Assembly (NCBI RefSeq): GCF_000150955.2
Contig: NC_011690.1
Span: forward strand, 310,001 to 374,000
DNA: 64,000 nucleotides
Source of the DNA: Phaeodactylum tricornutum CCAP 1055/1
Lineage: Eukaryota > Bacillariophyta > Bacillariophyceae > Surirellales > Neidiaceae
Direction of reading: 5' to 3'
In this document: positions 3,867-59,809 of the stretch, in pieces
How positions within the stretch are numbered: the stretch's first letter is position 1
Layout of the letters: each line of letters begins with the position of its first letter
Position numbers and translations under genes: made by a program
The notes under the pieces: generated by a model
Told to the model about the DNA's origin: nothing
The model's input: the letters and a program-made list of their open reading frames with translations, nothing else
Databases searched by the model: none

Positions 3867-4487
3867 TGCGAATTCAGTGTGAATTTTTTTTAAGAATGGA
3901 AGAGATGTTTCTGGACCATATCAAAATGCAATTCGATAGTATCCTCTGTTATCGTATCGCGGTAGCGATTCTATATCGGGTTCGCAACACGGTATGCTTT
4001 CCAGAATATGAACAAGGAGATGTTTGTAGTCTCTGTGGAAGCATCAGTAGGAAAGTACACCGAATCTAAGCATGGCCTGTTCTCCTTCTGGCAGTGATAT
4101 AGCAGTTGGGATCCTACTTCGTGTTTTGTCGGTCTGTCTTGAAATTTATAGAGTCACTGAACTTCCATTAGCGCTAACTTCACAGTCACAGTCAGCAATT
4201 TGTTTTTCACCATGGTGGTGGCGGGGTCCAGAAAGCGAAGAATTCCAACACTAGGTTGGCCATGGAAGGGATATATCCCAACGACAAAAGTCTTGCTTAA
4301 CTGTAAATTGTTGGTTGAAAGGACAGACAGGTCTACACGAATCCTGTGGTCTTTAGCCATAAATCAGACATTCTCGAATTTTGATAGCACAAGAATGGCA
4401 AGACCTGCAACGTTGTTTTTGCTCGCCTGTCAACAAAATACACACTAGGTTTTTTTGGACCTGTTCTGCCAAACATCGGCAATCAAC
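3867..4487. other. Divergent intergenic region with a double TNA-CWG-TNA footprint
   Basis: About 620 bases between the Rab-like and PAC4-like start codons. No convincing ORF or RNA gene. The only notable structure is the overlapping repeat at 4180-4194, described separately. Confidence 0.5.
4180..4194. repeat. Double footprint-like word TCACAGTCACAGTCA
   Basis: Reads TCA-CAG-TCA-CAG-TCA: the same TNA triplet three times with CAG between. It is what two successive insertion/excision rounds at one target would leave, if TNA-CWG-TNA is a transposon footprint. It lies in non-coding DNA. Confidence 0.5.
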
Positions 4488-5163
4488 ATGGTTGAGGTTA
4501 CGCAGGACGCACCGCGCATGGATATCACCACATTTGCCGTAAATTTGCCACCAGCAATCGTACAAGGGTTCGACGAGCCCATTGTCGATGACAGTGTTGG
4601 CATCAGTCTGGGAGATCAGGGCATTGTGGGGACAATCACGTTTTCCAAGAAGGCCGCCACAATTTGGTTTGGCTGGGGATCGTTACAATCCTCCAAAACA
4701 TCAGGCCCTGGCGGCAATGCGGGCTACGGGGCCACGCCAGTCGGGGCAAAATCCCTATGCGTCGGTACTGGTAAGAATGTTCGAACTTGGTAACTGCGTG
4801 GCTCCTCTCTAGCAATCGTTCTAATCCCCTTTTTCTTTTCCATCAGCACCCAATCTTTCTATGGGGCCGCTGGTTGTGGCGATGCCTCGTCCACGGTACA
4901 AAGGATCCCTTTCTATATCGGCTGAACCTTCTACATCCAAACTGATTGGATATGATGATGAGGGCGACGAAATGGTGGCTCGACAAATGAGTTCGCGTCT
5001 AAGTCAACGTCTCGGCATTGCCATCTTTGTGTCCTGCAGCTTTACTGGCGCTCCTGCTATGGCAACAGATGGCGTTGACCAGAGCATAGTGCAACATCGA
5101 GCAGCGGCCTTTGCGGAAAGAGAGGTATATCGGATCCTTAACAAAAAACTAAATTCTGTGTAA
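4488..5163 (+). CDS. Proteasome assembly chaperone 4-like protein
   Basis: Exons 4488-4770 and 4847-5163 (GTAAGA...CAG, 76 nt, phase 1) give 199 residues. The start is the first ATG in frame. The C-terminal half carries LVVAMPRPRYKG, then STSKLIGYDDEGDEMVARQMSSRLSQR, then IFVSCSF and a terminal amphipathic helix ending EREVYRIL. This is the order seen in PSMG4/PAC4 (LAVAM..., ..STSLLG..., A..LA.R....VFVSYN). The family heterodimerises with PAC3 and helps build the 20S alpha ring in the cytosol. The N-terminal ~90 residues (IWFGWGSL) fit the first beta strands of the fold. Assignment is by motif order only. Confidence 0.6.
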
Positions 5164-5242
5164 GAATAGGACTAAACAGACAAAGTCGTGTACATGCCAT
5201 TACTTTGTTTAATGCCAAATAACCCGACTGCGGTTTCAATTC

Positions 5243-5844
5243 TTACGGACAATCGTCGACGATACGATCAGGAATATACACGGTCATGCCGTCCATTTCC
5301 TTAACTAACTTTACTGCGGAAGCCAAACGGCTGCCCTCATAAATTTCGTCAAAGCTCCAGTGATCATCTAGCATCTGCTCTTCCACCGGCGTCATGCGCT
5401 GGGCCTTGTCCGAGCCTTTGCCAACCAGAACGACGTGATCGTAGCCCGAAGTGGTGCCCTCGCCAAACGTCGGCTCGAACCAGGTCTCCGTACGCGCTTC
5501 CTCCGGTGCCGAACCACCACTTGCAGGGCCAATGTCGATATCGTACATATCGCAGACTTCGTACAGAGTTCGGCCTACACACAATGGAACAAGAGAATAT
5601 GTGAGTACAGCAATCAGAATTTGTGGAGAATAAGTATCTTCCATCCTTTTCTACTGTTTTTCTTACCAATAACACCTTTTATTTTCCGCCGGGCGCCGCT
5701 CGGATCAACGAGAGTCAGATCTATCAAAAGATCCCTTACGGAAGGGACTGTCGCTGGAGCGCTCGTTACTGGAACGTTCGAACTAAACATCAACCGTCCC
5801 GTCAGTTGCGGAGTAAACACTTTTTTGGCGAATATTCGAATCAT
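5243..5844 (-). CDS. Mitochondrial-type ferredoxin-fold protein lacking cluster cysteines
   Basis: Exons 5844-5667 and 5574-5243 (GTAAGA...TAG, 92 nt, phase 1) give 169 residues. The start MIRIFAKKVF begins a basic, Ser/Thr-rich N terminus typical of a mitochondrial presequence. The body follows adrenodoxin-type ferredoxins: LTLVDPSGARRKIKGVIGRTL..., then SRLASAVKLVKEMDGMTVYIPD, which parallels SRLGCQ...LTK.MDGMTVRVP. All four ligand positions are replaced: the CxxxxxCxxC loop reads GPASGGSAPEEARTE, and the last Cys is Ala. It cannot hold a normal 2Fe-2S cluster. Ferredoxin-like bridge subunits of mitochondrial complex I (C1-FDX/NDUFX) are a plausible home; that is inference. Confidence 0.7.
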
Positions 5845-7374
5845 TTTTTGAGACCTAGGTCGGTCCTGGACTTGGAGTGAACACTTTAAGCGCACAGATA
5901 CAACCGACACAGTATCGACGGATCCAAAGGGTCCGTATCGGATATTGTCGTGCTGTGGTAAGAGGGATGTTGCGCAGATACTTCGGGATTTCCCCCCGTG
6001 TCCTGCGCTTGTTGCAGCGTCAACTTTCGCAGCGGCAGTCCGTTCACGACATAGTCGCGACATGACCACGTTATTCCGGTGTGACGTCGACTTCACAGTC
6101 AGTCTGCCCGTCGGTTAGATCAGGAGACACATAATCTTTCGACGGCAAGACGTAACTGAAATTCACAGGCATCGATACCAAATGTGTAGCTCAGTCAAGC
6201 AGCTGACTGTGAGAGCACTCTACCCCTCAATGGTTTTGTGCTTCCCCCGTAGGGAAAGATAAAACTGTTGCTTATTAACAAAATTAGAAATAGGAGCGTA
6301 TATCCCGGCAATACATATGAATTCATTTTTGTCATTAATGCAATATCGCTTCATTGTGACCCACGCAACGGATGAGCCTAATCAAGAAAGCCTGTGTGTT
6401 ACAGCATCTGAAGGAGCCTCTTTCACGAAGGGTTTCACAAAAGCAGCGGTGTGATTGTGGGACGGGATTTCAACTCTATAACTTGCAGCAGCCGCACAGA
6501 TTTGCTTTACCTCTAGACAGTGGTAGGTCTCCGGATCAGGCACCCCGGGTACTGCTTTGTCGAATAAAACGTAACGAAACAAAACGGAGTCGCCCCTTGT
6601 TCTCCTTTGCCCTTCTACCTACCTGACCGCACGTTATCTTATCTTCTCTCCGTGCGACTCTCTTCGTGGATCGAAATCAGAAAGGACGTCACCTGTTCTG
6701 CTGGAAGAAGAAGGCTTAACTGGTAAAGGCAAGTTCAAGTGTATGCGTCTCACAACCATCTGGTTGGGGAAGGCTTATGACCTCAAGCAGCCAATCCTGA
6801 TCCTTGGAGGTATTCGGCTTCGGTCTGTGACGTCATCTTTCGGTCTAAGTCTGGAGCTGATTATCTTCACGAGGAACAAGGGCGGATGCAAGTTCACCGA
6901 CGTACTACTACTACTGCGACAAGGAACTCGACACGAAAAACAAATGGCCTCCGCGTGTGGCTGTTCGCCTGCACTCGATCGGAAGGCGCACGTGAGCGGC
7001 GTAAAACCAGGAACGCAATTTTCCAACAACGCAGATAACCTCTCCAGCGACAATCAATGACTACTAGTGGTTAGTTAGTAGTTAGACTCATCGGAAAGGT
7101 GAAACCTGGATAACTATCTATCTTGACTCTAGAGACAAGACTAATAGAAATCGTGAGAGCAGTCGCGACGGGTAGTTGGCACCGATCGGAATACTGGAGT
7201 CGCGAAGGCGAATTTGATAGAGGAACGCCTCGTGCTTCTGTGCGCAAGCCGCGTAGGACTGGTTCGCGTCGATTGTTCTCCTTCGCTTCGATTGTTCCTC
7301 CAAGCAGCTCTCGAGTGGACGAAAAGCACACGCGAGCGTGTTGGAGGAAAAAGCAATTCTCACATCTGCTAGCA
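5845..7374. other. 1.5 kb intergenic region, no gene supported
   Basis: Divergent region between the ferredoxin-like and LRR genes. Several short overlapping frames are open on both strands; none has recognisable motifs or a splice partner. Footprint-like words lie at 6093-6101 (TCACAGTCA) and 6204-6212 (TGACTGTGA). Confidence 0.45.
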
Positions 7375-10196
7375 ATGGATGTGACCGAAACCGTTTCCTT
7401 TGCAATACCCTTTACAGTTAGACACCAATACTTACAACATCACAACATGCCTCCCAAACCTCAAGAACACCAGCAAGGGGAACCCGAACAAGACGCAGAC
7501 GAGCACCACTCGAGAACTTCCAGCAAGAGTAGTCTGTCAGGGCGCGAACCACTCCTGTTTGACAATGCAACTCTGTTGTCCGCGTCTGGGCATTTACCAT
7601 CGGAGACTTCTCGTAGTACTTTAGACGGTGAATTCGCTGTCAATACTGCTACGGAGATGGACTGTGATATCTCACTTTCAATCATGAATCGTCCATCACG
7701 GGATGTTGTTCTTCAACGATTATCGGAAGCCCTGCTCCGGAGATCTCTGACAAAGGTATGTGGTAGCGACATATATGATCCTTGGTGCCAAGACTGGTGC
7801 TATCTACAAAGTTCGCTCTGACACACTTTCTTTCTCTTGCTGCTTTCATTAAACTTTCGTCACTCGCCGTAATTTCAAAGATTGACTTGTCCCAACGAGG
7901 AATTCGAACCTCAGATGCTCGACTCATCAACATGGCACTGGCCCAGAACGCATCCCTGACAACCTTGAAACTGGGATACAATGATCTCGGGGACGACGGC
8001 TTGCGAACATTGGCAAACGGTATCGCTCGCCACGGGGCTTTAGAAAGCCTGGATCTAGGGTTCAACAACATCGGCGATAATGGTTGCCGCGCTTTGGCCG
8101 AAGCAATTACTGCGCAACCCATGTCACTTTCCAGATTGCGGACTCTGTATCTTGCAGGAAACGCATTGGGCGAAGATGGAGCATTGGCCATTGCCAAAAT
8201 CGTCCAGCACGGATCTCTGGAAAAGCTGTATCTCACTGGAAATCGCCTAGGACCAGATGGAGTTAGAGCCATTGCTGAGGCAGCGTTGGAGCTACAGCTG
8301 GAGAAAATTCACAAAGTCAACATCAATTGCGTAAACAGTCTTCAAGCAAGCAGACGTGGGATCAAGGAACTGTTTCTCGGAGGCACTGGATTGGGCGGTG
8401 TTGGTTGTCAGGCTATCGCGGACTTGTTAGGGCAATCGTCAACTCTGCAAGTTTTGTCTCTGGCGAACTGCGACCTAGACAATGATTCTTTGTCAGTCTT
8501 GGCATCCAGTATCAAGTCAAATAGGGAGCAATTACCCCTGGAGTCTCTTCAATTGTCATTTAACCAGATATCTTGCAAAGGAGTCGAGAGTCTTTCAAAT
8601 GCTATATGGGGATGCCGTTCACTTCGAGAGCTGCTTCTCGACAACAATCAGATCGGAGACCGCGGGGCGGGGCAAATCGCTGCCGTCTTAGCCTCTGCGA
8701 ATCGCTTGGAGACCCTAAACGTTGGCTTCAATCGAATCAAAGCAGTAGGCATTAAGGCGATCATGAAGACTGTTCCCGAAAGCGAGAGTTTACATTCCCT
8801 TTCTCTGTCGGGGAACACCGTTGACGCCAGTGCCGCGAGAAGTATTGCCTATGCTCTGGCATTCAATCATTCTCTTCTTTCGCTCTCGCTAGTGAACACC
8901 TCAATTCAACATGAAGGACAGCGACATATTACTGCAGGAATTGTTTCCAATAGTCACATTAAACTCTTGCAACTGAACGGCTTCCGAATTGGCCCGATCG
9001 TTGTCACGCTCGGCTTTCCAGCTGCCTTGGAACATTGGAGCAATGATCAGATTCTCAACTTTATTCATTTAATGTGGGACAAATCCGCTGAGTTGGTGGC
9101 ACAACAGGAGCACGAGGCAAAACCAGTCTTTGACACATCACGCTTTTTCTCGAAGGCGAATCCTCGAGATCGAGCGGCCCCGTTGGACGCCGCGGTCGTG
9201 GTTGACGTGGCAAAGAAGGCCTATGTGGAACTTGTTACGGAGGGGGTTGATATTTTTTCAAAGCGACCTGGCAATATGCACGAGCTGTCGCCGCTACCAG
9301 GTGATAACTTCATAGTAGAGTCGACGAGGAAGGTCGGAGAGAACAGCTATGCCGAATCGTCGCTTGAAAGCCATGTTCAAGCTCGTTCTTTCGTGACATC
9401 CCCAGAATTAGCCGGCTCTGAAACCTATGTTCCAGATCCTCAGCGAAAGAAACGCGTCATTGAGTGGCTTTGTTCTAATATTCAGAACCTGAACAAAATG
9501 GCCCAGCAGCCCTTTAACTCGAAAGAGTTATGGGCGCTTCACCAGCGATACTTTACGCCAGTCGTCAACGAGTGTGGCGGAAGCGTCAACCCTACTTCAG
9601 AAACGTCCAACAATCAAAACGGGAATCCAAAATTACACGCTTCCAGGGTTTCTCGATCTAACTCGACTGAGAACCCAGCTGATATGATGAATGATTCAAC
9701 GGATGACACACTGATGACCCAATCGAGTGACCCTTTCATCTTGGATTCGCCTCAAGGCATCGTTTCCTTGCCCGTTCTGAAAAGAAAAGTGTCTTACCGA
9801 TTTCTTGGTGATGCAATGGTAAATTCAGCCCCTCGAATGTCAAATTGTGTGGAGATGCGCGGGCCTGAGACAGAACAGCCAATTTCGAACGGAATGGTGT
9901 CCATGATGATTGAAGGAGGCCCGGTTGGCCACTCGATGCCTCGCAAAACCAAACGTGCACGGAGGAATCGCACTCGCATTTCATTTCTACCTCGTGTGAA
10001 GGTAAAGCTGGATTCGTATTTGGACGTCTGTCACGAGAAAGCGTTGACGATGATGAGGCAACTGTACTTTGTTGAACGAGCAATCTTGCTGGGTCAGTTG
10101 AATTCAGATGTGAACTCGATGCCGTACAGTGCCCGCATGCACTTGCACGGCGTCCTTGCTATGGACGCTGAAATGATTTTAGTTGACATGATATAG
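7375..10196 (+). CDS. Leucine-rich repeat protein (ribonuclease-inhibitor type)
   Basis: Exons 7375-7755 and 7881-10196 (GTATGT...AAG, 125 nt, phase 0) give 898 residues. Residues about 128-400 are tandem ~28-residue LRRs of the RI/NLRC type, e.g. LTTLKLGYNDLGDDGLRTLA and LESLDLGFNNIGDNGCRALA. The rest is non-repetitive, with Ser/Asn-rich stretches, a basic patch (RKTKRARRNRTR) near residue 825 and a C-terminal region ending MDAEMILVDMI. No kinase, NACHT or membrane segment is seen, so it is probably a scaffold. A second in-frame ATG at 7447 (MPPKPQEH) may be the real start: a footprint-like TTACAGTTA lies at 7412-7420, between the two ATGs, and such words are otherwise mostly non-coding. Confidence 0.8.
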
Positions 10197-10319
10197 AAAT
10201 ACATAATCTGAGTGAACAGTTATAACAACTAATTTGCAAAACACTTTTAGAAAGTATGCGAACTACCTCCGTGACAAGCTAATTATTTTGCTTGGGCGAA
10301 AGGCAGCTATTGTGCTTTC

Positions 10320-16810: not shown

Positions 16811-16908
16811 GTGAGGCAAGGAACTCAAGCGTTGAATGATACTGCTATTTTCAATATTTGTAACCAAAGCCACGTCCTCATTGGTTTCTATTCAGTAGAG
16901 TCCTGATG

Positions 16909-43317: not shown

Positions 43318-43433
43318 TGGACGATTGGATGATTGGATTGTTGGATGGTTGGACGATTGGATGGTTGGATGGTTGGATTGTTGGATGGTTGGATGGTTGG
43401 ATGGTTGGACGGTTGGATGGTTGGATGGTTGGA
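43318..43433. repeat. 8-bp minisatellite (GGATGGTT)n, left copy
   Basis: About 14 imperfect units of GGATGGTT and variants (GGACGATT, GGATTGTT). The right copy at 54,219-54,301 has about 10, so the array has changed length since the 5 kb duplication. All three frames on each strand stay open through it, giving false PSNHPTIQ-type repeats. Confidence 0.9.
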
Positions 43434-43775
43434 CAAAAAGGGATCGATTGTCCGACACTATCCAAGCTATCTTTCCGCCGAAAGCATAGCCCCTTGCCTC
43501 GCCGGGCCAAAATAAAGAGATGGTCTCTGCGCCATCCTGGTCGCAGCCTTCGCCTGCCGCGCGACCCGTTTCCGCTTGAGATCCAGTTATGAGGAACTAC
43601 TTACAAAGATATCTCACCAAATTAGCTCAGCCTCCTGGAATCAACTGCTACAGCCGGGAAACCACGCATTTCTCAATCCCGGTCTGAAAGTCTTACGGTA
43701 TCATCCTCAACGTTGGCGTCATCTGCTAATGCAAAATTGGAGGGAAACTCTGTTCCTGGTCCCTGTTCCTGGCCT

Positions 43776-45929: not shown

Positions 45930-46752
45930 AGAGAAGGACACCGTAACTTGAGCCTGCGCTTCCTTCTCGGGGATGACATTGGCATCCACAATTCCAACCA
46001 TCAAAGACTTTGCCTTCTTGTGATGGTAACAGTCCAGACAAAAAAGTACAAAAACGACCGTCTGCAGGAAATCTTCGCAAAGCCGAACATTCAATCCTTG
46101 AATGCCGCAAAAAAAGACGTCGTTCAGGGCGTCAATTTCTTCGTGTAGGCCGTTCACTGTCAATTGGCTAACGACGGCGTTACTGCGCACGTCGTCCACG
46201 ACTGGTCCGCTTGCAAGATTGGCAATCCTTTGATACATCCGTCGGAGCAACGCGGCCAGGTGACTGGCTAAGAGACATTGTTCTCGTTCCGCTCCACGGA
46301 TCCATTCCCGGATAGGTGCGTACTGATTTTGCAAAAAGTCGACAATCAGATTAAGACAGGTAAAGTATACGTAGGCATTGGACTGAGCGTACGCGCACGC
46401 GCTCGTGGCCGTGTCAAGTGTCACGGAAGAGAGCGGAAAATGGACGTGATCGTTCGTGGGTTCGTGGACTGCCAAGAAAGGAAAGAGCTGGGGTGGTGAT
46501 ATACCCAGCTGTAACGACTGGGTTTTACATTAATGAGGCCAACGTAGAGTGGTGGTGTGGTCTCCAGTGCTGGCGGTAAAATACAGGCAATCAATGCATT
46601 GATACAGTTTTGGGATAAAATAAAGTATAACGCGGACGGGTCGCGTACCCCGGACACCAGCAGTGTCACGGTGTGTAGCACTTGTGTTTTGACCAGGGGA
46701 CTCCTGTAGAGTAGACGAAAGTTGATGAGAGTGTCCGAAGCGAGAGGGAGAG
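45930..46752 (-). pseudogene. CLEC16A/FPL fragment, copy 2
   Basis: Same order as copy 1 (40,199-41,020) with scattered substitutions. It is cut short after EAQAQVTV, where it meets the tetranucleotide repeat and a footprint-like word. It is therefore shorter than copy 1 and certainly not a full gene. Confidence 0.7.
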
Positions 46753-47312
46753 AGATGGTTAGTTCTGGGGGAGTTTGGTTTCGGGTGCTACGGACACAAC
46801 TATCGACGATCGACCTTTGACGGTTTCGAGACAAATCCACGTACCAGACCACTCCGTGCAAGCACCGTTCCGGCGACGAGGTCGTAAAAACCCTCGCTTC
46901 TTGCTTTCCGACGAACCAGTACTCTCCTTTTTCGCTTCGGCCGCCTGAACCTCACGAACAGGGATCATGTCGCCCGACAAGTTTTGTCCAAACTTGCGCT
47001 CTGTGATAGTCACTGGAGTAGCAGTGTCTGGATCGTAGGCTTCCGCATACAAAGTAGGCAACGGAATATCGGTGAACCCTCTCGTCTTCCATAAAACGCG
47101 GAACACGCAAACGATATTTTCCGAACATGTAGCGCTTCATGTCTTTCAGTTTGATTGCCCGTTCTTTGCGAGTCTGGTAGTTTGTTGCAGCCTGCAAGAC
47201 AGCCGTGTAGCGGGACTAGAGACGGGCCTTACAGTTAACTGCATTCTCCCTTTCCTCCTCCGTTAGGTTCGGGTCTTCCACAAACAACTAGTATTGATCC
47301 ACAATCATCAGT
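46753..47312 (-). pseudogene. C2/MCTP-like fragment, copy 2 (last exons only)
   Basis: Copy of 41,021-41,577, from KRYMFGKYRLRVPRF to GFLRPRRRNG, with the same one-base frame change as copy 1. Homology stops at the WMMIVDQY region (47,312). Confidence 0.55.
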
Positions 47313-47958
47313 CGACAATGGCGTTCGTGTGACGATCGGGTTGCCGTTCCAGTGGACGCGAAAGACCGTCTCTCGTACGGTACGTTGCCAACTAACAGTA
47401 ACTACCTAGCTGTAACAGTAAACACGAGATGTAGACTGCGTGTGCTCCAATTCGATCTGGTTGGTTACAGGATCATGGTAGCGTCCGTTCCTTGACCCAC
47501 TCACTCACTCACTCACTCACAGTCAGCTAGCCAGCCAGCCAGCCAGCCAGCTAGTCCGTCCCGTCCCGTACACTTCGGTGGTTGGTTGTTGTTTCTCACA
47601 GTCATTGACAGTCACTGTCAATTCTGCTTATCTCCCCTAACCCTCTTTACTAGCAAAGTCACAGTTAGCTAGTAGCTAGTAGCTAGCTAGTAGAGAGGAC
47701 TGGAGCGTTTCGCTGTATGGTGCTTCCAATTGAACTGGCATTTATACTGTCTCTGTCACCAGCTGTCAAGCTACCTACTCATCGTACGGTTCGAGTCTAG
47801 CTCTACAGTGCGTAGCGTATAATGGAGTACCCGACGCGCCGCTTGGGGACCACGCTGCCGGTCACGGAACAGGCAGGGGTGGAGAAGATTGGACCATGGA
47901 CTGTGAGTTGTGTTCCCGACGGCGACGGCGACGGCGACTGCGATGTTGACAGGTTTAC
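47313..47958 (+). other. Unassigned DNA with an orphan first exon and clustered footprints
   Basis: At 47822-47902 an ATG opens MEYPTRRLGTTLPVTEQAGV... (27 codons) and ends exactly at a GTGAGT donor, with no matching second exon: it looks like the 5' exon of some gene, stranded. Upstream are (ACTC)n and (CAGC)n runs (47,497-47,550), AGCTAGT repeats (47,665-47,692) and seven TNACWGTNA words between 47,393 and 47,667. Confidence 0.45.
47596..47620. repeat. Cluster of three footprint-like words
   Basis: TCACAGTCA (47596-47604), TGACAGTCA (47606-47614) and TCACTGTCA (47612-47620). The last two overlap as TGACAGTCACTGTCA, i.e. TGA-CAG-TCA-CTG-TCA, as if one target had been used twice. Confidence 0.5.
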
Positions 47959-48212
47959 CGCTTTATAGTTATGTTATGTTACGCTACGTTACGTTACTTG
48001 ACAGGACAGGGCAGGGCAGGGCAGGGCAGTGAAAATGTTTCCCGCTCGAGCCACCAAGCGAGTCGCAAGCCAGCGCCGCTGGGAAGTCCAGCAGCAAAAG
48101 GATCGGTAGCCTATTTTTTGTTTGGTGGGAACGTCCATCACGGTGCATCGTTCCGACGTACCTAGTAATGACAACTGTCCGTACGAACATACGCTGTTTG
48201 GCGGGTGCGGTC

Positions 48213-48235
48213 TGACTGTGAGCATTTTACTGTTA
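48213..48235. repeat. Two clean TNA-CWG-TNA gains relative to parent gene
   Basis: TGACTGTGA (48213-48221) and TTACTGTTA (48227-48235) lie where the parental gene (near 32,360-32,380) has single CGA and TTA triplets in otherwise matching sequence. Removing 6 bases from each restores the alignment. The same pair is in tandem copy b (49678-49686, 49692-49700). Confidence 0.75.
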
Positions 48236-49411
48236 GCTCCTGTCAAAAAGAAATGGCTGGTTTATTTTTTTTTTTTCGAAATCTCGGAGCCGACAAAGAC
48301 CAAGTACGAGGCAGCGTGGATAAACAAACGTACGTACTGGGTACTGCCACACTTCGCGTGGCCAAGGACTGTTTTACTTTCCCTTACGTGTCCTTGAAAG
48401 AAAAGGCAACTATCAGAACACGTTCGACACCAAAGACTTGGTAACCTACCATTGTTTTTGCTACACACAACCGACTGTGGAAGCCATGTTGGATTTAGAA
48501 CGAAAACGTGCGGCCGCCAAGGCGGAACAAGCATTGGAGAACAGTACAGGCTGTGCTCGGACTGAAGCTATGAATGCCTTTGCTCGAAGTGGTGGTAGCG
48601 GTCGTATTATTCAAGCCCTTGTTTGCAATGCTGAAGAAGACTCGGCCGACGCTGGCTCTTCGTCGGCTGCAAACAAAAAGAGTGAAGAGAAGGCACAAGC
48701 CGACCGCAGCTTACTGTTAATTGGGTCAAGTACCGCAGGATGAAAGCCGTACCAATTGAACAGCGGCTTGTCGCGCGAAGATCGCATATTCATGGATGGG
48801 GCTTGCTTACCAAATCAGGTCCGACAGCCAATTGCGGATCAACGAGAACGCGCGTACGAAAGTTCCGGAGAAGGTAGCTGGTACATGTTCCATCTAGACA
48901 TGCAGCGCATTATGTATTTGACGAAGATTGGCTGCATGGCACGCTTTATGAATCATTGCTGTGGTCCGAACGCGTACGCGAAAATTATTTCGGTTGACGC
49001 TGAAATTAGTGGGTTAGGTCAGGACCGCAAGATTGTGGTGTTTGCAAATCGCGACATTTCCGCTGGGGAAGAGATAACGTATGGTACAATTGGCAATTGG
49101 AATTCCGGAAGGTGACCAGGGAGAAATTGTTTCCATGGCGAAGGCTGAGGGGGCTCGGTACTCCACAGCAATGATTCAAAAAGCGTGCCATGCAGCCAAT
49201 CCTCGTCGCATACACAATGCGCTGCATGTCTAGACGGAACATGTAGCAATTTGTATTTTGCTTGAAGCTTCCACATATTGGTATAAACAGATCATGAATT
49301 CGTAGAGAGGAGGGTAAGGCCCATCGCGCGCGAATGGGAGGAAAAGGACTTTGCAGATTACACATTTCCGGTGGAAGATGGCAGTCTCCGGTGTACTTGC
49401 GGGAGAAGGGA

Positions 49412-49433
49412 GGGGGGGGGGGGGGGGGGGGGG
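49412..49433. repeat. Run of 22 G at the tandem junction
   Basis: An uninterrupted G homopolymer exactly at the boundary between the two 1.475 kb units. The equivalent place in copy b (50,871-50,885) has GGAAGGGGGGTGGGGG. It may be a replication-slippage product or a sequence artefact. Confidence 0.8.
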
Positions 49434-50905
49434 CGCTTTATAGTTATGTTATGTTACGCTACGTTACGTTACTTGACAGGACAGGGCAGGGCAGTGAAAA
49501 TGTTTCCCGCTCGAGCCACCAAGCGAGTCGCAAGCCAGCGCCGCTGGGAAGCCCAGCAGCAAAAGGATCGGTAGCCTATTTTTTGTTTGGTGGGAAAGTC
49601 CATCACGGTGCATCGTTCCGACGTACCTAGTAATGACAACTGTCCGTACGAACATACGCTGTTTGGCGGGTGCGGTCTGACTGTGAGCATTTTACTGTTA
49701 GCTCCTGTCAAAAAGAAATGGCTGGTTTATTTGTGTTTTTTTCGAAATCTCGGAGCCGACAAAGACCAAGTACGAGGCAGCGTGGATAAACAAACGTACG
49801 TACTGGGTACTGCCACACTTCGCGTGGCCAAGGACTGTTTTACTTTCCCTTACGTGTCCTTGAAAGAAAAGGCAACTATCAGAACACGTTCGACACCAAA
49901 GACTTGGTAACCTACCATTGTTTTTGCTATACTATACACAACCGACTGTGGAAGCCATGTTGGATTGAGAACGAAAACGTGCGGCCGCCAAGGCGGAACA
50001 AGCATTGGAGAACAGTACAGGCTGTGCTCGGACTGAAGCTATGAATGCCTTTGCTCGAAGTGGTGGTAGCGGTCGTATTATTCGAGCCCTTGTTTGCAAT
50101 GCTGACGAAGACGCAGCCGACGCTGGATCTTCGTCGGCTGCAAACAAAAAGAGTGAAGAGAAGGCACAAGCCGACATCAGCTTACTGTGAATTAGGTCAA
50201 GTACCGCAGGATGAAAGCCGTACCAATTGAACAGCGGCTTGTCGCGCGAAGATCGCATATTCATCGATGGGGCATGCTTACCAAATCAGGTCCGACAGCC
50301 AATTGCGGATCAACGAGAACGCGCGTACGAATGTTCCGGAGAAGGTAGCTGGTCCATGTTCCATCTAGACATGCAGCGCATTATGTATTTGACGAAGATT
50401 GGCTGCATGGCACGCTTTATGAATCATTGCAGTGGTCCGAACGCGTACGCGAAAATTATTTCGGTTGACGCTGAAATTAGTGAGTTAGGTCAGGACCGCA
50501 AGGTTGTGGTGTTTGCAAATCGCGACATTTCCGCTGGGGACGAGATAACGTATGGTACAATTGACAATTGGAATTCCGGAAGGTGACCAGGGAGAAATTG
50601 TTTCCATGGCGAAGGCTGAGGGGGGCTCGGTACTCCACAGCAATGATTCAAAAAGCGTGCCATGCAGCCAATCCTCGTCGCATACACAATGCGCTGCATG
50701 TCTAGACGGAACATGTAGCAATTTGTATTTTGCTTGAAGCTTCCACATATTGGTATAAACAGATCATGGATTCGTAGAGAGGAGGGACTTCGCGAATGGG
50801 AGGAAAAGGACTTTGCAGATTACACATTTCCGGTGGAAGATGGCAGTCTCCGGTGTACTTGCGGGAGAAGGAAGGGGGGTGGGGGCGCTCGCAATTGTAT
50901 TGGAC
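49434..50905 (+). pseudogene. Trithorax gene fragments, tandem copy b
   Basis: Repeats copy a almost base for base from CGCTTTATAG onward, with a shorter GGGCA run (two units against four) and scattered substitutions. The inverted SET segment is at 50,635-50,721. Unlike copy a it continues into the parental 3' end (CGCAATTGTATTGGACGATTG) and then the SmpB fragment, so copy b keeps the original right-hand neighbour and copy a arose by tandem duplication of it. Confidence 0.85.
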
Positions 50906-51455
50906 GATTGAAAAAAACTAACAGTAACATAAATGCACACTTTAAGATCAATATAAGATTGCCAGCGTTTCCCTAATGCGAATTAGTTACATTAGTATTA
51001 TACGCGAAAGGATTTTTGATGATTCGCCGTTCTTCCCGCTTGGTGTCCCTCTTTTTGATCGTCACCCGCTTGTCGCGCACATTTTTACCCCGACACAAGG
51101 CAATTTGCAATTTGACGCGATTTCTGTCCTTATACTAGGCTTTCAGAGGCACACTAGTCATGCCTTGTTGTTCGGGCTGTTGAAGCAATTTGCGGGCTTC
51201 GGCTTTGTGTGCCAACAGAGCACGGGGTCGGGTTTCTTCATGCTGAAAGAAGGCCCCAGCCTGACTGTGTTTGCCAATGTGCACGTGCACGTTGTAAAGT
51301 ATGCCGGACCACTCATCTTTAGTGGGACGAATATAACTGTCTCGTAGGTTGAGTTTGCCGTTGCGAATCGACTTGACTTCGGTGCCGACCAAGGATATCC
51401 CAGCCTCAATGGTATCAACAATTTCGTAGTTGCGGTAGGACGACCCGGTTCACAG
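50906..51455 (-). pseudogene. SmpB gene fragment, copy 1
   Basis: Matches 37,264-37,770: the trithorax-SmpB intergenic DNA, the SmpB 3' end and the mature domain up to about AYRNYEIVDTIEAG. The signal peptide and start are missing, and single-base changes break the frame (for example the LKAYYND region has a stop). TAACAGTAA at 50919-50927 is a 6-base gain relative to the parent. Confidence 0.85.
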
Positions 51456-52525
51456 AGATTGTGCTAGGTCAATGGCTTTCTGGGCCGGAAGATGAGCCAC
51501 CTGAGACGGCGCTTGTTACGTCCGAGCTACGCTCTTCCTTCCTTTGCTACCTCAACATTGTGAATGGCAAACAATTGTTTGATCTGCTCAAGGAGTTTCT
51601 GTCGTAAAATTTGTCGACACCGATCCAGATACTGAACCACGATTAAGCACACCCCCGGGCTTTCGAAACATAGTGTGAGGTTGCTTGCCGTTCTAGAGCC
51701 ATCGCGGAACATTTTCGTGCCGAACCGCAACATGCAACAATGCCCCCCATCGCCGGCCGCCGCAATCACGTTGAGCAATTGTAGGTAGCGCACATAGAAC
51801 ACTCCCTCAAAGTCTTTCTTCTTTCGTTCTAGGTCGCGTAACGTAGACGTCCGTGCGGTCCAGGACGAGGATCACAACTCGTGCATCGATGTCAACCTGG
51901 ACTCCTTTAGCCCGGCAAAGGCCGCCCAAGTGGCGCTGTTTGTAGCGTCATCACTAGCTGTGCATCGAAAAGTCATGCGTCTCCGGAGGTCTAAATCGGT
52001 CCCTATTGGGCGGTCTCTCACGTAGAGCTCCAAAAATGTCACCCAGTTCATCCGCCGGATCCGTCCGGTCCATCGGATACATCGCCAGTGGCGGAGAAAA
52101 CACAGAACTTTTTCTAGTCTTTTTTAGGACCATCCAGAGACGCTTCGTGACTCGACACACGGCACGAAAATGTATCGCCATAAGCGCGTTGAAACGGGCA
52201 ACTTCCACGTCGTTACTCGTTGCCCCGCGAAAGTTGCGAATGATTGTTTCTGCCGTGGCGTGGGAGCATAAGCCGTACAACCGGGCTGGCCCAATTGATA
52301 CGCATGAAAGCGGCGAACAGGAAGGATGCCGAGCCTAGTCGACATTGCAGCCGTTGGTAGCGCCCTTGGACAGTGGACTCAATCAGGTCGACAAAAAGAT
52401 CCGACACTCCAAAAAGCTCTTGCGACTCCAAAGTACGTTGACAAAACACTGTTTTTGCTTTGAGAAGTACAATCCGAAGCAGTGACACTACTGGAAGTAC
52501 ATGCGGTGACTTTGTCTTCTCGGTA
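51456..52525 (-). pseudogene. Fragment of an unknown gene
   Basis: On the minus strand, protein-like pieces follow one another in changing frames: SLLRIVLLKAKTVFCQRTLE, LFVDLIESTVQGRYQRLQ, ETIIRNFRGATSNDVEVARF, MAIHFRAVCRVTKRLW, then FYVRYLQLLNVIAAAGDGGH and RQILRQKLLEQIKQLF. I cannot name the family. It begins abruptly at SmpB fragment 1 and ends abruptly at the 5 kb repeat, so it is another copied piece; whether an intact parent exists is not visible here. Confidence 0.45.
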
Positions 52526-53330
52526 CCCAACAAATCACAAGAGATCCGGCAAAACACGTCATGGTAATCCAAAAGGCGTAGTAAGATTCCTCCCAAAGAA
52601 AAACGCTCGTGGCGATACTAAGCACCACAACACCTTGACCCAATTGCAACTGAATTGGATACAAGACACCTTTGAGAGGATTCAACGACGTCTGTGCTGA
52701 GAGTGGGTTTTTGCTTTGTGTAGTCATATCCATGTCGCCGGCTTCACCATCGTTAACATCTTCTCCTAGAGCTCCTTCCGCAATTCTTCGTCATGCTTCC
52801 ACTCGAACTCCTTTTGCCTGAGACCACGCTATTCTTGTTCAGCTGGGGCTTCGTTGAAGGCTTTCACGGCCTCTATGTTCTGGCTGGGTTTGACAACACG
52901 AGGTTGCGTCTTGCTTGTGGCCAACATGTTGAACACGACAAAAAAGCTACGGCAAGGATGCCAGGGCGATGGTGTTTTGCGACGATACTCGGAAGACGCA
53001 ACCATTGCCCAACCAATCGAAAAAACCAAGAAAAGACGGGAACAAGATTAACATTGCGCGAAATACGAATGCCCATGCAAAAGCTGTCATTGAATGCAAA
53101 GGCAGATTGAAGGTCTTGCCCTGCCCACGACGACAACTGGAAGATGACCACGCCAAAGTAATACCTGGAAAATGCGTGCAGCCAAGGGTTAGACCCTTCT
53201 AGATAACTGCGGAATTCATGCTTGCACAAATCATAAACATACCGTCATACCTGCTTATTGCAGGTAAGGCAGGATTTTCTCGTAGCTTTGCAACTCTTCA
53301 ACATGCTTCGTAAACGTCGTCATGCGCCAC
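52526..53330 (-). pseudogene. C2/MCTP-like fragment, copy 3
   Basis: Copy of 41,647-42,450 with a few changes (for example one base less in GAATGCCCATG). It loses the last exons after LVICWVP, being fused there to the unknown gene fragment. Confidence 0.5.
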
Positions 53331-54218
53331 CTGGAAACAACAGATATGGTCGCAAGACAAAACCAAAACTCATTCAAACTCATAGGACAGCCTTTGACAG
53401 ACTCTCTCGCTTATTGTGATCTTTCTCGGCTTCGCTCCCTTTCTATCGACCGGTCCACGCCCTCTTCTGGTCGTCCACAGTTGCTTTCCGCCGAGCTGCC
53501 TGCCGTAGTCATCGTCGTCATCGTCGTCGTCGTCATCGTCGTCGTCGTGCGACGGACTTTTTCTTTTGGATACAGATTGGCTGTGACATGTTGCATGTTG
53601 CATGTTGACTGTGCAAGGGAAACTGATTTTCGTAGATCCCAGTGGTCTCGAAAGGTCGAATGGTCGAATGGTCGAATGGCTACCACCAGCAAGGCAAATA
53701 AATAATGGACGTAGTGGTCGACGACGTTATCGATATCCGGGTAGCCTAATGAAACATTTTCGACGAGATATGTAGTCGGAAAATACGGAACATAGAAAAC
53801 CGTTTTGACCGTCGTATCGGATGGCCCACGCGATAAGGAGTGTGTGTATAGTGCCTACTTACTGTTACACTAGCTGTGAAGATCAGGCGATATCATCACG
53901 ACCCTACCCTCCCAACAAGACCATCTTCAAGTATTTTTGGGATACTTCAGCGTTTGATAACGTAGAAAACAGGACGGCCGCTTGATTAGCAGTGAGTGTG
54001 TCCCAAGTAGCTGGAGCTATTAACTGTAAATTGCTTGTGAAAGTTGTGTTTTACTGTTAGTGCTGAGTGTTGTTGGTTGGCATTGCTCGAAAACATACGA
54101 AGACAAGGAGGCTCCCAGTAACATCCACAACCTAGGTAGTTGACTGACTATTCGATACAAACACAGAAGCGTACCATTTACCATATTTTGAAAGGTTAAA
54201 GGAAATAATCTATCTTTG

Positions 54219-54301
54219 TGGACGATTGGACGATTGGATGATTGGATGGTTGGATGGTTGGACAATTGGATGATTGGACGATTGGACGATTGGATGGTTG
54301 G
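54219..54301. repeat. 8-bp minisatellite, right copy
   Basis: About 10 units of GGATGGTT-type repeat against about 14 in the left copy. A (GTC/ATC)n run at 53,512-53,548 is also longer than its partner at 42,631-42,655. Confidence 0.85.
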
Positions 54302-54644
54302 ACAAAAAGGGATCGATTGTCCGACACTATCCAAGCTATCTTTCCGCCGAAAGCATAGCCCCTTGCCTCGCCGGGCCAAAATAAAGAGATGGTCTCTGCA
54401 CCATCCTGGTCGCAGCCTTCGCCTGCCGCGCGACCCGTTTCCGCTTGAGATCCAGTTATGAGGAACTAGTTACAAAGATATCTCACCAAATTAGCTCAGC
54501 CTCCTGGAATCAACTGCTACAGCCGGGAAACCACGCATTTCTCAATCCCGGTCTGAAAGTCTTACGGTATCATCCTCAACGTTGGCGTCATCTGCTAATG
54601 CAAAATTGGAGGGAAACTCTGTTCCTGGTCCCTGTTCCTGGCCT

Positions 54645-55670
54645 CTAGCATTTGTTACTTGTTGGTTTCGCCGCCGCCGCCGCTGCTGCTGCTGCTGCTG
54701 CACGGGCAGCCGCCAATGCAGCTAAGCGAGGAGAACGTCGTGGATGCAACCGCGCAATCCGACTTGACCGACGACTGGGCACAGTACGATTGGTACGCCT
54801 GGAACGACGGGTAGAGGTATTGCGACGACGTCGCGGCTCATCTGGTACTGTAGCGGCTTCCTCTGGCACGGTTGTCGCTTCTTCTGGCACTGTTGCTTCT
54901 ACTTCGTCTTCCGTATTGTGAGAACTGTCGTCGTCTGCTTCTCCAGCCACAACACTGTCAACAACAGCAACAACAACACTGTCAACAACAGCAACAACAG
55001 GAGGAGGAGGAGGAGGAGGAAGCGAGGTGGTGAGCTCACAGTCAGGAGCAGTGTACTGCTCTGGTTCTACTGGTTGCGTGGGACCGTCTGTCTTCGCACA
55101 AAGCTGTCTCTTCTGCAACCACTGCTCTTCGAACAATTCCATCTCATTCTTCCATGTCCTGGGTTTGAATCCTGTCATGAGTGCCATTCTTTGCTTGTTT
55201 TTTGCCATCCTTTGTTTGCGTTTCTTTTGGAGGTCCGTCATCACCATTGGTGTCCGAACTACGACTGTAGAGGCAAAGGTGAGGTGCTCTTTCTGCTTTT
55301 TCCGGCTTTCCAAGAGATTGGTGTCCTGTATCTTCCTCTGGCTTGTGTTCTCGTGTGGAACAGTTGCTGGAAAGACAAAGGCGTGGCTCACTTTCTGCCT
55401 TTTACGACTTTCCAATTGATCGTTGTCCTGCACGTACTTCCTCTTGAGGGTGTTCTCTCGTGGAGCATGGGTTGGAAAGACAACAACATTGTGGCTCACT
55501 TTCTGCATCTTGGTAGTCACCAAATGATCGTTGTCCTGTACGTACTTCCTCTTGCGGGTGTTCTCGCTTGGAGCAATGTAGGTGTTTCCTTGTCCTTGTC
55601 CTGGTCGGGTAGAACCGTTTACCTTCTCATACAAGTGTGTGAGTTTTGTGGCGTTTGTGTAGCGCAACAT
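54645..55670 (-). CDS. Unknown basic protein with internal repeats, right copy
   Basis: 341 residues, almost identical to the frame at 43,776-44,810. Differences are whole-codon changes in the Val-Asp-Ser repeat and the Pro and Ala runs, plus a few substitutions (e.g. GQGQG for GPGQG, KEH for KVH). The start, stop and repeat unit ENTxKRKYVQDND are kept. Either both copies are functional or too little time has passed for decay. Confidence 0.5.
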   Translation of the reverse strand: MLRYTNATKLTHLYEKVNGSTRPGQGQGNTYIAPSENTRKRKYVQDNDHLVTTKMQKVSHNVVVFPTHAPRENTLKRKYVQDNDQLESRKRQKVSHAFVFPATVPHENTSQRKIQDTNLLESRKKQKEHLTFASTVVVRTPMVMTDLQKKRKQRMAKNKQRMALMTGFKPRTWKNEMELFEEQWLQKRQLCAKTDGPTQPVEPEQYTAPDCELTTSLPPPPPPPVVAVVDSVVVAVVDSVVAGEADDDSSHNTEDEVEATVPEEATTVPEEAATVPDEPRRRRNTSTRRSRRTNRTVPSRRSSRIARLHPRRSPRLAALAAARAAAAAAAAAAAKPTSNKC

Positions 55671-56789
55671 CTCCCCTTTCGTTGGTTTCCATCAGACTCA
55701 CCTTGTCCAGCTCCGTCGCGAAAGGCAACTCCTCAATTCCAACAGGATCTCGTGTGAATGTCTGCATCGCGGGGGGTTGATCGAAGCTTGTCGGAACTAC
55801 ACCCTTATGGCTCTCGTTCTGCCTCTCGCCAGACCAGAATTCGATGTATTTGCAAGGTGGACTCATGTCGTTAGTTACAGCTTACAGCTTGGTGTACTTT
55901 GTAATTCGCTCGTTGGAATGCGAGCGAGAAACAAGTGTGCGAAGAGGAACGAACGAACAAACGAACGAACGAACAAACGATCGATCGATCAAACGAATCA
56001 CGAAGTGAGGACAGTCCCAACCTTGGGGAAGAAGAGTTGGCGATAGCATCGGGCTCAAAAGACGTTGGAAATGCACTACTCCGAGGCACCATAAGTCAAC
56101 CAATGCTCCACTTGGCTCAACTTAACAATGGAAATGGCTCTATTCACGAAATGGATTAACGCATTGCCCAATCCATCACCACAATTAGAAATCGGCAGCC
56201 AGCCAGCCAGCCAGCCAGCCCCAACCAATTACGGCACGTCCTGTCTACGCGCAGTGGGTGGTCCACTCGTTGATAAAAAAGGAGGCAGAAAAAAATTCAG
56301 ATTACATAAGACATATTTTAAAATATTTTTGACTACTTGAGTTTACTTTTTACACTTATGTTAACTGTAAGCTCTGTCGACAATACCTTCCAGCGAATTC
56401 CGTATCCTTCCCAGGCCATTGGCGGACGAGGCGTTTCTCCGGGAACGTCTCGTCGCGCCTTGTGAATTCACCCCATCACGTCATTGACTATTACGCTCAC
56501 ACTGAATGATCTTGATTGATTGGAGAAACTCTCCCTTATTATTGATGGAGTGCTGCCCGGAGTGGTACCAAGAAGCAATGTCGACGGCCGTGTAAGTTGG
56601 TGTAAGCTTTTTGGGAGGCGCTTTATAGCAAGCTTCGCCCGAAGCCATCCCAACGCTGTAGCTTCCGCCAGTTTCGAACTATTCTGGCAGCGACCCAAAC
56701 ATCATTCAATCAATCAATCAATCAGTCAGTCAGTCAGTTAACCAATCAATCAATCAATACGTTGCCTCTAACTGTAAGAACCACCTCCC
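55671..56789. other. Non-coding stretch, right copy of 44,811-45,929
   Basis: Same tetranucleotide runs and footprint-like words as the left copy. Single-base differences only (for example TTTTAAAATAT for TTTTGAAATAT). No gene supported. Confidence 0.6.
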
Positions 56790-57524
56790 AAGAGAAGGAC
56801 ACCGTAACTTGAGCCTGCGCTTCCTTCTCGGGGATGACATTGGCATCCACAATTCCAACCATCAAAGACTTTGCCTTCTTGTGATGGTAACAGTCCAGAC
56901 AAAAAAGTACAAAAACGACCGTCTGCAGGAAATCTTCGCAAAGCCGAACATTCAATCCTTGAATGCCGCAAAAAAAGACGTCGTTCAGGGCGTCAATTTC
57001 TTCGTGTAGGCCGTTCACTGTCAATTGGCTAACGACGGCGTTACTGCGCACGTCGTCCACGACTGGTCCGCTTGCAAGATTGGCAATCCTTTGATACATC
57101 CGTCGGAGCAACGCGGCCAGGTGACTGGCTAAGAGACATTGTTCTCGTTCCGCTCCACGGATCCATTCCCGGATAGGTGCGTACTGATTTTGCAAAAAGT
57201 CGACAATCAGATTAAGACAGGTAAAGTATACGTAGGCATTGGACTGAGCGTACGCGCACGCGCTCGTGGCCGTGTCAAGTGTCACGGAAGAGAGCGGAAA
57301 ATGGACGTGATCGTTCGTGGGTTCGTGGACTGCCAAGAAAGGAAAGAGCTGGGGTGGTGATATACCCAGCTGTAACGACTGGGTTTTACATTAATGAGGC
57401 CAACGTAGAGTGGTGGTGTGGTCTCCAGTGCTGGCGGTAAAATACAGGCAATCAATGCATTGATACAGTTTTGGGATAAAATAAAGTATAACGCGGACGG
57501 GTCGCGTACCCCGGACACCAGCAT
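56790..57524 (-). pseudogene. CLEC16A/FPL fragment, copy 3
   Basis: Copy of 45,930-46,663; cut at both ends, stopping at LLVSGVRDPS. Confidence 0.7.
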
Positions 57525-58018
57525 CAATATAAGATTGCCAGCATTTCCCTAATGCGAATTAGTTACATTAGTATTATACGCGAAAGGATTTTTGATGATT
57601 CGCCGTTCTTCCCGCTTGGTGTCCCTCTTTTTGATCGTCACCCGCTTGTCGCGCACATTTTTACCCCGACACAAGGCAATTTGCAAATTTGACGCGATTT
57701 CTGTCCTTATACTAGGCTTTCAGAGGCACACTAGTCATGCCTTGTTGTTCGGGCTGTTGAAGCAATTTGCGGGCTTCGGCTTTGTGTGCCAACAGAGCAC
57801 GGGGTCGGGTTTCTTCATGCTGAAAGAAGGCCCCAGCCTGACTGTGTTTGCCAATGTGCACGTGCACGTTGTAAAGTATGCCGGACCACTCATCTTTAGT
57901 GGGACGAATATAACTGTCTCGTAGGTTGAGTTTGCCGTTGCGAATCGACTTGACTTCGGTGCCGACCAAGGATATCCCAGCCTCAATGGCATCAACAATT
58001 TCGTAGTTGCGGTAGGCG
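57525..58018 (-). pseudogene. SmpB gene fragment, copy 2
   Basis: Nearly the same piece as 50,948-51,437, sharing its changes, so the two come from one another or one intermediate. It ends at GGTAGGCG, where the sequence joins the 3' flank of the SRD5A3-like gene. Confidence 0.85.
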
Positions 58019-58338
58019 CGGTCCTATCGCATTCCTGTCACAGTCAGCTTTACACCTGCTAGTTCTCTTGCGAGGGTCGGCATAGGTTCAACACTCTCGG
58101 CCAAAGACTAGAATCAAAGGTATGCTCCGAACACTCCCCCGCAAATTCGGCACAAGGGCAATTGCGTAGAGTCCTTTGATTTAAATTCCAGCGCTGATCG
58201 AAATTCACCCAGGAAACAGTTGGAAGTCTTGTAGTGCTCGGGTCTGATAAGATGGGATTTGGTCGATATTTGACGCCTGTAGTGTTAACCATTAGCAAAC
58301 GTAATCCTCGGCCAACAAACACGTTGGGCTTTCCGCGA

Positions 58339-59328
58339 TTACGACACGAACGGAAGAATGGCGTATCTATGGGTAGCCGCGAAGCCCACACAGTGCGTTT
58401 GGTACCAGCGATGACTCTTCCGTGCCGAGACGGTAAGATTGACGAGGACCCAGAGGAATAGAATCCAGCCACGCCTCTGGTTCAAAAGAAGAGCCAACGC
58501 CCCGTAAATCATGACTTCGGCGGTGTAGTGCGGGCAGGTAATGACGCCAAACCATCCCCCGGTGGGCAGTCGATACGGCGACCGGGTGTGTTCACTCCCG
58601 TCCACGGTGTGATTGTGTGGCGACCGTAATTCCGCGAGTAACGTGTGGTGCCGGTACTGCTGGTATTGTGCCCAGAGACCAAAGGCTGCCACAGCAAAGC
58701 GCAGCATCGTGTAGTTTGCATGTCTGGAGGACGCGTCCGGTAGTTCCGCACGACTGTCGTCGCCCTCGTGTTTGCAGCCCAAATCCAGAATGACAAAGGG
58801 GAGGAACGCGTAGTGGACCATGCCTAGTAGATAGCCCGCCACGTGCATAACACTGGTGTTCCGCCACCGATGCAGGAGGAGACACTCGGCCAACCGCCGT
58901 ACCAGGTGAATTGCAATCAAGAGTACTGCCAGATCGATTTCGGGTTTGGCGAGGGATTCTTGGATTCGAGTAATCTTTGTCTGGCTTGTGAGTGAAGTAT
59001 AGGAAAGGTAGCCTAGCGCCAGTAGACCGAGGACGTAAAAGTGTGTAAAGCAACGTTTCCGTACCATGAATAGTTCCCCGTGCAGAACCCAATCCTTCAC
59101 GGTCGTGTGTGAAGAGCCTTCTTTGGTAAGACTGCCACCGGTAGTCTTTCTCCATCCATCCCGTGGCCTGATGCGTATCTTGCCGTGAGCGGACAGCTCT
59201 CGCAGCCACGGAACGTACGGCGATACCAACGCCAGGACGGTCAATCCTGCATACAGCAACGGCACGTGTTTGTGAATCGAGCATATCACGGGCGATGACC
59301 CGAGGGTTTCGAAGGAAAGTAGGAACAT
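58339..59328 (-). CDS. SRD5A3: Polyprenol reductase (SRD5A3 / DFG10-like)
   Basis: Single exon, 329 residues, start at the first ATG (59328). Several membrane spans: VPLLYAGLTVLALVSPYVPW, FYVLGLLALGYLSY, EIDLAVLLIAIHLVRR, AGYLLGMVHYAFLPFVIL. Conserved steroid-5-alpha-reductase C-terminal features: LVRRLAECLLLHRW, PTGGWFGVITCPHYTAEVMIY and the final RYAILPFVS, matching the ...HY.AE..IY and FIPFVF end of SRD5A3. It would reduce the terminal isoprene of polyprenal/polyprenol to make dolichol in the ER for N-glycosylation. Length fits the family (~320). It is the intact parent of the deleted copy at 38.4-39.1 kb. Confidence 0.85.
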   Translation of the reverse strand: MFLLSFETLGSSPVICSIHKHVPLLYAGLTVLALVSPYVPWLRELSAHGKIRIRPRDGWRKTTGGSLTKEGSSHTTVKDWVLHGELFMVRKRCFTHFYVLGLLALGYLSYTSLTSQTKITRIQESLAKPEIDLAVLLIAIHLVRRLAECLLLHRWRNTSVMHVAGYLLGMVHYAFLPFVILDLGCKHEGDDSRAELPDASSRHANYTMLRFAVAAFGLWAQYQQYRHHTLLAELRSPHNHTVDGSEHTRSPYRLPTGGWFGVITCPHYTAEVMIYGALALLLNQRRGWILFLWVLVNLTVSARKSHRWYQTHCVGFAATHRYAILPFVS

Positions 59329-59809
59329 CAGTGCGCTCGCCTTTTTTTCTTCTCGGCTTCACTTTTCCTCCTTTCTATCGATCGGTGGAAGCCTTTCTGG
59401 TCGTCCACTGTCGTCATGGTCGTGCGAAAGAATTGTGGTTTGGGCCCAGATTTTACTGTGACCACGACGACAATCTATTTTTTTGGTGGGGTTTGAACTA
59501 TTTAGAAGTACACTAACCGAGTTTGGATATATGGTAAAACCCGGAATTATACTGTTCGGAACCGGACAACCTTTCGAATGAGACATCGAGGCGACCATGG
59601 CCGAGGACACTCGCGTTTTCGAAAGGCGCTTCACTGTCAAGTTAACCCTCGCTTCGCTGGAATAAGACGGCACACTTCAAAGGACTTTAGCAATTTCTCC
59701 TATTCAATTCAATTCACACGAAGCGTTCACTGCGAAGTCTTTCAGTCACAAAAATTGCTGCCGATTCACGCCGCGCTCGGGTTGCGCTGCCCCGCTGGCC
59801 CTTTTCCGA
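59329..59809. other. Divergent intergenic region
   Basis: About 480 bases between SRD5A3 and the PDZ gene. TTACTGTGA at 59453-59461 and TCACTGTCA at 59631-59639. No gene seen. Confidence 0.45.

Follow-up and report, generated by a model that had tools for sequence, protein, structure and literature searches.

Does the frequent recurrence of the nine-base word TNACWGTNA in a 64,000-base stretch of the Phaeodactylum tricornutum CCAP 1055/1 genome (contig NC_011690.1, positions 310,001 to 374,000; hereafter the window, with positions counted from its first base) reflect chance, a signal kept by selection, or the traces of a mobile element? A preliminary description of the window had noted roughly 50 such words against about 8 expected, with the two N identical in well over half of them (25% expected), and had read them as direct TNA repeats around CAG or CTG left by a departed transposon. 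The evidence assembled here makes it highly probable that nearly all equal-N words are scars left on excision by a cut-and-paste DNA transposon having a 3-base TNA target duplication, ends of the form CAG...CTG and 3-base overhangs.

The word occurs 55 times in the window when duplicate copies are included, and it is present at all 30 of the positions (30/30) that the preliminary description had listed. From the even composition of the window (A, C, G and T at ∼25% each), about 8 words are expected by chance, and 200 dinucleotide shuffles returned essentially that figure (mean 7.8, SD 2.8, maximum 17). N is equal in 42 of the 55 words, compared to a mean of 2.2 and a maximum of 6 in the 200 shuffle runs, so that the total and its matched-N subset both stand far above the shuffled controls. 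When the words are read in the CAG orientation, the matrix of the two N has 10/15/7/10 on the diagonal and 13 off it, and complementary N, which would render the word a palindrome, is rare (3/55). Segmental duplications do repeat some of the words, as had been claimed: 13 of the 55 (12 matched, that is with equal N, and 1 unmatched) lie in second copies. Their removal leaves 42 words, 30 matched and 12 unmatched, and masking by coordinates gave identical counts. In the 55.1 kb without second copies, 100 shuffles had a mean of 1.7 (maximum 5) for matched and of 4.7 ± 2.1 (maximum 9) for unmatched words; the excess thus resides mainly in the equal-N class and is smaller for unequal N. The preference for equal N, set beforehand as a test, is present without the copies (30/42) as well as with them (42/55). 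These counts confirm that in this window the excess is real and not a product of chance or composition.

TNA-CWG-TNA is a sharp word and no degenerate motif, since its single-mismatch relatives (matched words altered at one fixed base) stand at chance level, with 34 in total versus 31.3 ± 5.8 in shuffles. The other 23 letter permutations of the word are found 0-5 times in matched and 2-10 times in unmatched form each, against 30 matched occurrences of the word itself, and a 50-kb control from E. coli K-12 has 2 matches. Sorted by core, equal-N TNA-xyz-TNA repeats number 42 for CAG/CTG and 4 for the next cores (copies included); among direct repeats of the form aNb-xyz-aNb with a 3-base core, counted excluding simple tandem words, TNA with CAG/CTG accounts for 30 and the next class for 11. 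W is A in 16 and T in 14 of the 30 matched words, and C or G in its place, with N free, yields 0 and 2 words, respectively, in the whole window. The base outside each TNA is C in 25, T in 24, G in 10 and A in 1 of the 60 flanks, a distribution distinct from that around all TNA in the same sequence (∼19, 28, 28 and 25% for C, T, G and A; chi-square p 1.8e-7). With outer flanks mostly C or T, the target preference is about YTNAR.

Paralogous empty sites at the PHD/SET gene

The strongest evidence for scars comes from paralogous empty sites. ORFs with Pfam matches to PWWP, PHD, bromodomain, FYRN and SET domains follow in a row at 31314-37263 and probably constitute a single gene. Pieces of the PHD and SET genes are found, broken and rearranged, at 47959-49423 (+), in a copy that bears three scars. 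These pieces recur in a second broken copy at 49434-50885 (+), where all three scars are present again, one of them altered by one base; no ORF of at least 150 amino acids is listed in either copy. The first two scars, TGA-CTG-TGA at 48213-48221 (copy at 49678) and TTA-CTG-TTA at 48227-48235 (copy at 49692), stand opposite the empty sites CGA (32361-32363) and TTA (32368-32370) of the open PHD/bromodomain ORF (together 32361-32370, +). The third, TTA-CTG-TTA at 48711-48719, whose copy at 50182 differs by one substitution (TTACTGTGA), stands opposite the empty site TTA (36691-36693, +) of the open SET-domain ORF. In alignment, GTC-CGA-GCG-TTTAGC of the open gene corresponds to GTC-TGA-CTG-TGA-GCA-TTT-TACTG-TTAGC of the first copy, and AGC-TTA-AATC of the gene to AGC-TTA-CTG-TTA-ATT of that copy. 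Opposite the three scars, the open gene has BLAST gaps of 6, 7 and 5 bases, each of which would be explained by CTG plus one copied TNA, in two cases with an additional single-base change. None of the three empty sites has a CTG next to its TNA. Given that the frames of the gene are open and the copies broken, the scars appear to have been gained in the copies rather than lost from the gene. A further scar, TAA-CAG-TAA at 50919-50927, faces an 11-base gap in the related end of the SET ORF; the BLAST alignment is not unique there, and the site is supportive only. Within each broken copy, an 86-base segment from the SET gene occurs in both orientations (36898-36983, 48879-48964, 49163-49248, 50350-50435 and 50635-50720).

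The two broken copies belong to a set of duplicated blocks in the window (38405/58019, 40200/45931/56792, 41642/52521 and 47959/49434). In the region 38405-59113 the segmental duplications are nested, and four aligned blocks begin or end at a junction that they share at 57523. Four recent duplications are 0.7 to 3.3% diverged over aligned columns and offer 14 aligned word positions, 13 of them matched in at least one copy and 1 unequal. The word is kept in both copies at 13 of the 14, with a single substitution in one copy at 42970, and an empty site opposite a word is found at 0/14. Within words, 2 of 126 bases are substituted, versus 102 of 8368 (1.2%) overall in the duplicated copies; the words change about like their surroundings and so are not visibly protected by selection, at the low power of this comparison. 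Barring gene conversion between the copies, the duplicated scars predate these duplications, and the three that face empty sites arose after the broken pieces had separated from the gene.

Distribution of the words and neighbouring genes

According to the preliminary description, the words are mostly intergenic, intronic or pseudogenic. Judged by ORFs alone, 29 of the 30 matched words indeed lie outside Pfam-supported ORFs. The single word inside compares to about 11 expected by length (37% of counted bases; p 2.9e-5), and the split of the window into coding and non-coding sequence accordingly reveals depletion of matched words in supported coding sequence. Outside it, 29 matched scars in 34.6 kb correspond to about 1 per 1.2 kb. 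Unequal words have no clear avoidance (2/12 in supported coding sequence; p 0.23). Neighbours less than 150 bases apart number 9, whereas random placement on 892 candidate targets, all of them outside supported coding sequence, gave a mean of 3.7, with at least 9 in 2 of 1000 runs. Some words are situated in repeat-rich sequence (47480-47700).

Besides those at the PHD/SET paralogues, the matched words, all listed without strand, take the following forms. TCA-CAG-TCA is present at 1015-1023, 6093-6101, 27694-27702, 38424-38432 (copy at 58038), 44176-44184 (copy at 55036) and 47517-47525, and TCA-CTG-TCA at 40423-40431 (copies at 46154 and 57015) and 59631-59639. TAA-CTG-TAA is found at 4298-4306, 43120-43128 (copy at 54021), 45502-45510 (copy at 56362) and 45908-45916 (copy at 56769); two TAA-CAG-TAA, at 47393 and 47413, share the interval 47393-47421. 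TGA-CTG-TGA recurs at 6204-6212 and 63812-63820, TTA-CAG-TTA at 7412-7420 and 41498-41506 (copy at 47229), and TTA-CTG-TTA at 42958-42966 (copy at 53859) and 43150-43158 (copy at 54051). The words at 4180 and 4186 overlap in a double form, TCA-CAG-TCA-CAG-TCA (4180-4194), such as a second event within the TCA produced by a first would yield. A cluster at 47596-47620 comprises TCA-CAG-TCA (47596), the unequal word TGACAGTCA (47606) and TCA-CTG-TCA (47612). The word TGACAGTGA at 31624-31632, within the PWWP/PHD/bromodomain ORF, is the sole matched word in Pfam-supported coding sequence and is probably due to chance; the same word at 61210-61218, within a long ORF having a sub-threshold PDZ match, may be due to chance.

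Among the 12 unequal words, 4 have the form TCACAGTAA on either strand (25067, 27466, 30300 and 59453, outside duplicate copies), where arithmetic from even composition predicts ∼0.4; the one at 25067 is in supported coding sequence. The duplicate copy at 50182, also of this form, is one substitution away from an equal scar. To read the four others as decayed equal scars is a poor fit and they are hard to explain in this way; possibly TCACAGTAA is a second scar form. TNA-CA-TNA, considered as another class of scar, was rejected: supported coding sequence holds 4 of its 14 words (∼6.7 expected by composition), and the class shows no C/T preference in its flanks. One TTA-CA-TTA, at 50987-50994, coincides with a 5-base gap versus related sequence just past the SET ORF and is perhaps a shortened scar.

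Other genes in the window include one for SmpB at 37332-37973 (-; Pfam E 1.3e-47), whose N-terminal leader with RIARPAQAFLPP, read by eye, we take to resemble the bipartite plastid leader of a secondary-plastid alga; its AQAF-LPP stretch would point to a red secondary plastid, perhaps that of a diatom. Two adjoining CrcB-like ORFs at 23498-25128 (+), the first below the Pfam cut-off, presumably represent the fluoride channel family.

Origin of the equal-N words

The proposed course of events is as follows. Insertion at a YTNAR target would duplicate the three bases TNA by way of a 3-base stagger. On excision, the transposase would cleave the non-transferred strands within the element, three bases from its ends, thus leaving CAG on both broken ends, and the two CAG 3' overhangs would anneal through C:G, an A·A mismatch and G:C. 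Repair would convert A·A to A:T or T:A, hence giving CAG or CTG about equally often, and the sealed site TNA-C(A/T)G-TNA would be six bases longer than the original. A central A·A mismatch implies that W is about half A and half T, in agreement with the observed 16 to 14. The element ends CAG...CTG and the overhangs are suggested by the scars themselves, the mismatch step by the sequence together with the manner of Tc1-type repair. Nearly every equal-N word, ∼28 of the 30, would be a scar, chance accounting for 1-2, and hops of a few element copies could have produced them. The earlier claim that the direct TNA repeat around CWG represents a target duplication plus a 3-base remnant is supported by the equality of N in 30 of 42 words, the lack of near-miss excess and the three empty sites. 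Equal N where N itself is free is a signature of copying and would not be expected of a binding protein, which may favour a given base or its mirror partner.

Several observations weigh against excision scars. Thirty scars to zero elements is an unusual ratio. Complete elements of the form TNA-CAG...CTG-TNA with inverted ends, as the preliminary description had envisaged, did not emerge from the window above control end words: 190 pairs of the same TNA at most 8 kb apart included 1 that matches at 7 end bases and none that matches at 8, and for three control end words (37, 158 and 34 pairs) the corresponding counts were 0-3 and 0-2. Its remark that no transposase is seen in the window held, with no transposase family among the Pfam matches of the 29 translated ORFs. 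By eye, none of 25 of the 35 inverted-repeat pairs in 1-38000 has a first arm starting with CAG; 38001-64000 was covered by a coarser search only. As to the empty sites, two of the three BLAST gaps are 7 and 5 bases rather than 6 and each needs an extra 1-base change, and MAFFT merges the first two gaps into one of 13. The mild excess of unequal-N words (12 versus 4.7 ± 2.1) is unexplained, and the clustering of scars is not predicted by random hopping alone and is without firm explanation.

A wider search, for any TNA-flanked element of up to 8 kb with inverted ends, gave two candidates (14-15 of 20 end bases matching, spans of 6.7-7.3 kb), neither of them CAG-ended. Relatives sought with the SF3B2-like protein of the window in public viral and genome contig collections were not returned, and a plasmid search with 40000-59700 only gave no match.

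Set against excision scars are explanations that dispense with a transposon. A regulatory or RNA-processing motif kept by selection, for instance a dimeric bZIP- or MYB-like site composed of half-sites TNAC and GTNA, would be in line with the avoidance of supported coding sequence (1/30 matched words) and with the clustering (9 close neighbours versus a mean of 3.7 at random). It is nonetheless improbable: a homodimer on inverted half-sites would want complementary N, found in only 3 of 55 words; the graded excess of near misses is absent (34 versus 31.3 ± 5.8); the three scars stand opposite 6-, 7- and 5-base gaps in the open gene and not opposite point changes; and substitutions in the words are not less frequent than elsewhere (2/126 versus 1.2%), albeit at low power. 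It is very unlikely that an endonuclease or an abortive transposase breaks TNA with a 3-base stagger, fills in and adds CWG, a form of break repair that would account for the short word in 64 kb where no element is seen; a CWG that is constant and symmetric is what element ends would naturally produce, and we know of no enzyme adding such a trinucleotide. Slippage on simple repeats could be entertained for the words in repeat-rich sequence (47480-47700), yet the three empty sites offer no CTG beside TNA to slip on, and shuffles, other direct-repeat cores and letter-permuted words all fall far lower than the word itself, with the effect that slippage, chance and composition retain a negligible likelihood.

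If the words are excision scars, they would constitute a readable fossil record of cut-and-paste transposition. Transposon activity is usually counted from surviving copies; here the scars relate to visible copies as 30:0 in 64 kb, so that the scars by themselves could yield hop rates, targets and ages. The chances seem to us evenly balanced that the source was an undescribed low-copy DNA transposon lineage combining a free-N TNA target with Tc1-style CAG overhangs, active for long or in a burst, with scars as its main genomic trace. Such a lineage would extend Tc1-style excision chemistry to a 3-base target in which N is free. For motif searches it would be a caution that a 9-base word found in excess can stem from repair rather than mark a binding site.

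Comparison with known systems

The reading as excision scars is supported; the superfamily is left undecided and membership is not claimed. Our first guess, as apt to be wrong as right, is an enzyme resembling those of IS630/Tc1/mariner that uses a 3-base target. Nested within the excision-scar explanation, and a rival on superfamily only, is an element of the PIF/Harbinger group (PHIS) of the NuwaII kind, which we consider doubtful. PHIS elements are characterized by a DDE transposase plus a Myb/SANT protein. NuwaII, whose named hosts are animals, fungi and plants, duplicates TNA within a C-TNA-G target, and its ends mostly begin with GG (PMC4482050). The scars share the TNA duplication and resemble NuwaII in their outer pyrimidine/purine flanks, which follow YTNAR (C 25, T 24, G 10, A 1 of 60) and not strictly C...G; in contrast, they would imply ends CAG...CTG if the core derives from the ends. 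Within the PIF/Harbinger group, moreover, excision of mPing is repaired precisely, aided by the target duplication (PMC4561436), and the footprints of rice mJing are varied (PMC6850418), whereas a CWG of constant form, with A and T about equally frequent at W, better suits 3-base mismatched overhangs.

Excision footprints as such are well known. In the titles and abstract beginnings of the literature matches listed, TNA-CWG-TNA scars are not described, which is weak evidence of novelty with subscription journals mostly uncovered; as far as these listings go, the TNA form, the density and the absence of an element beside the scars are new. The TBE elements of Oxytricha, from the Tc1-like group, use the 3-base target ANT (not TNA) and undergo precise developmental excision. 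Tc1/mariner enzymes cut one strand a few bases within the element, and end-joining of the 3' overhangs yields footprints; Sleeping Beauty leaves a CAG remnant at TA (PMC8151067), and its TACWGTA footprint has been sought in tumours (PMC4378557). The scars in the window are like these TA-CWG-TA footprints in that the target is directly repeated on both sides of C(A/T)G, the terminal three bases of the element ends, and the 3-base CWG footprint of the Tc1/Sleeping Beauty type is found here in 30 matched words (W 16 A/14 T) and at three empty sites. They differ in that Sleeping Beauty and Tc1 duplicate the two bases TA, whereas the window has a dense natural set, no element visible, in which the duplicated unit is the three-base TNA, N being free and equal, and not the TA of IS630/Tc1/mariner. 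The group is not strictly confined to TA, because most elements of its pogo/Fot branch carry the 3-base duplication TAA (PMC7386202; the term "footprint" is absent from that paper), as distinct from the TNA of the scars. A 3-base stagger is thus possible in the Tc1-like group, and the comparison suggests an excision chemistry that is Tc1-like, exerted on a target that is not.

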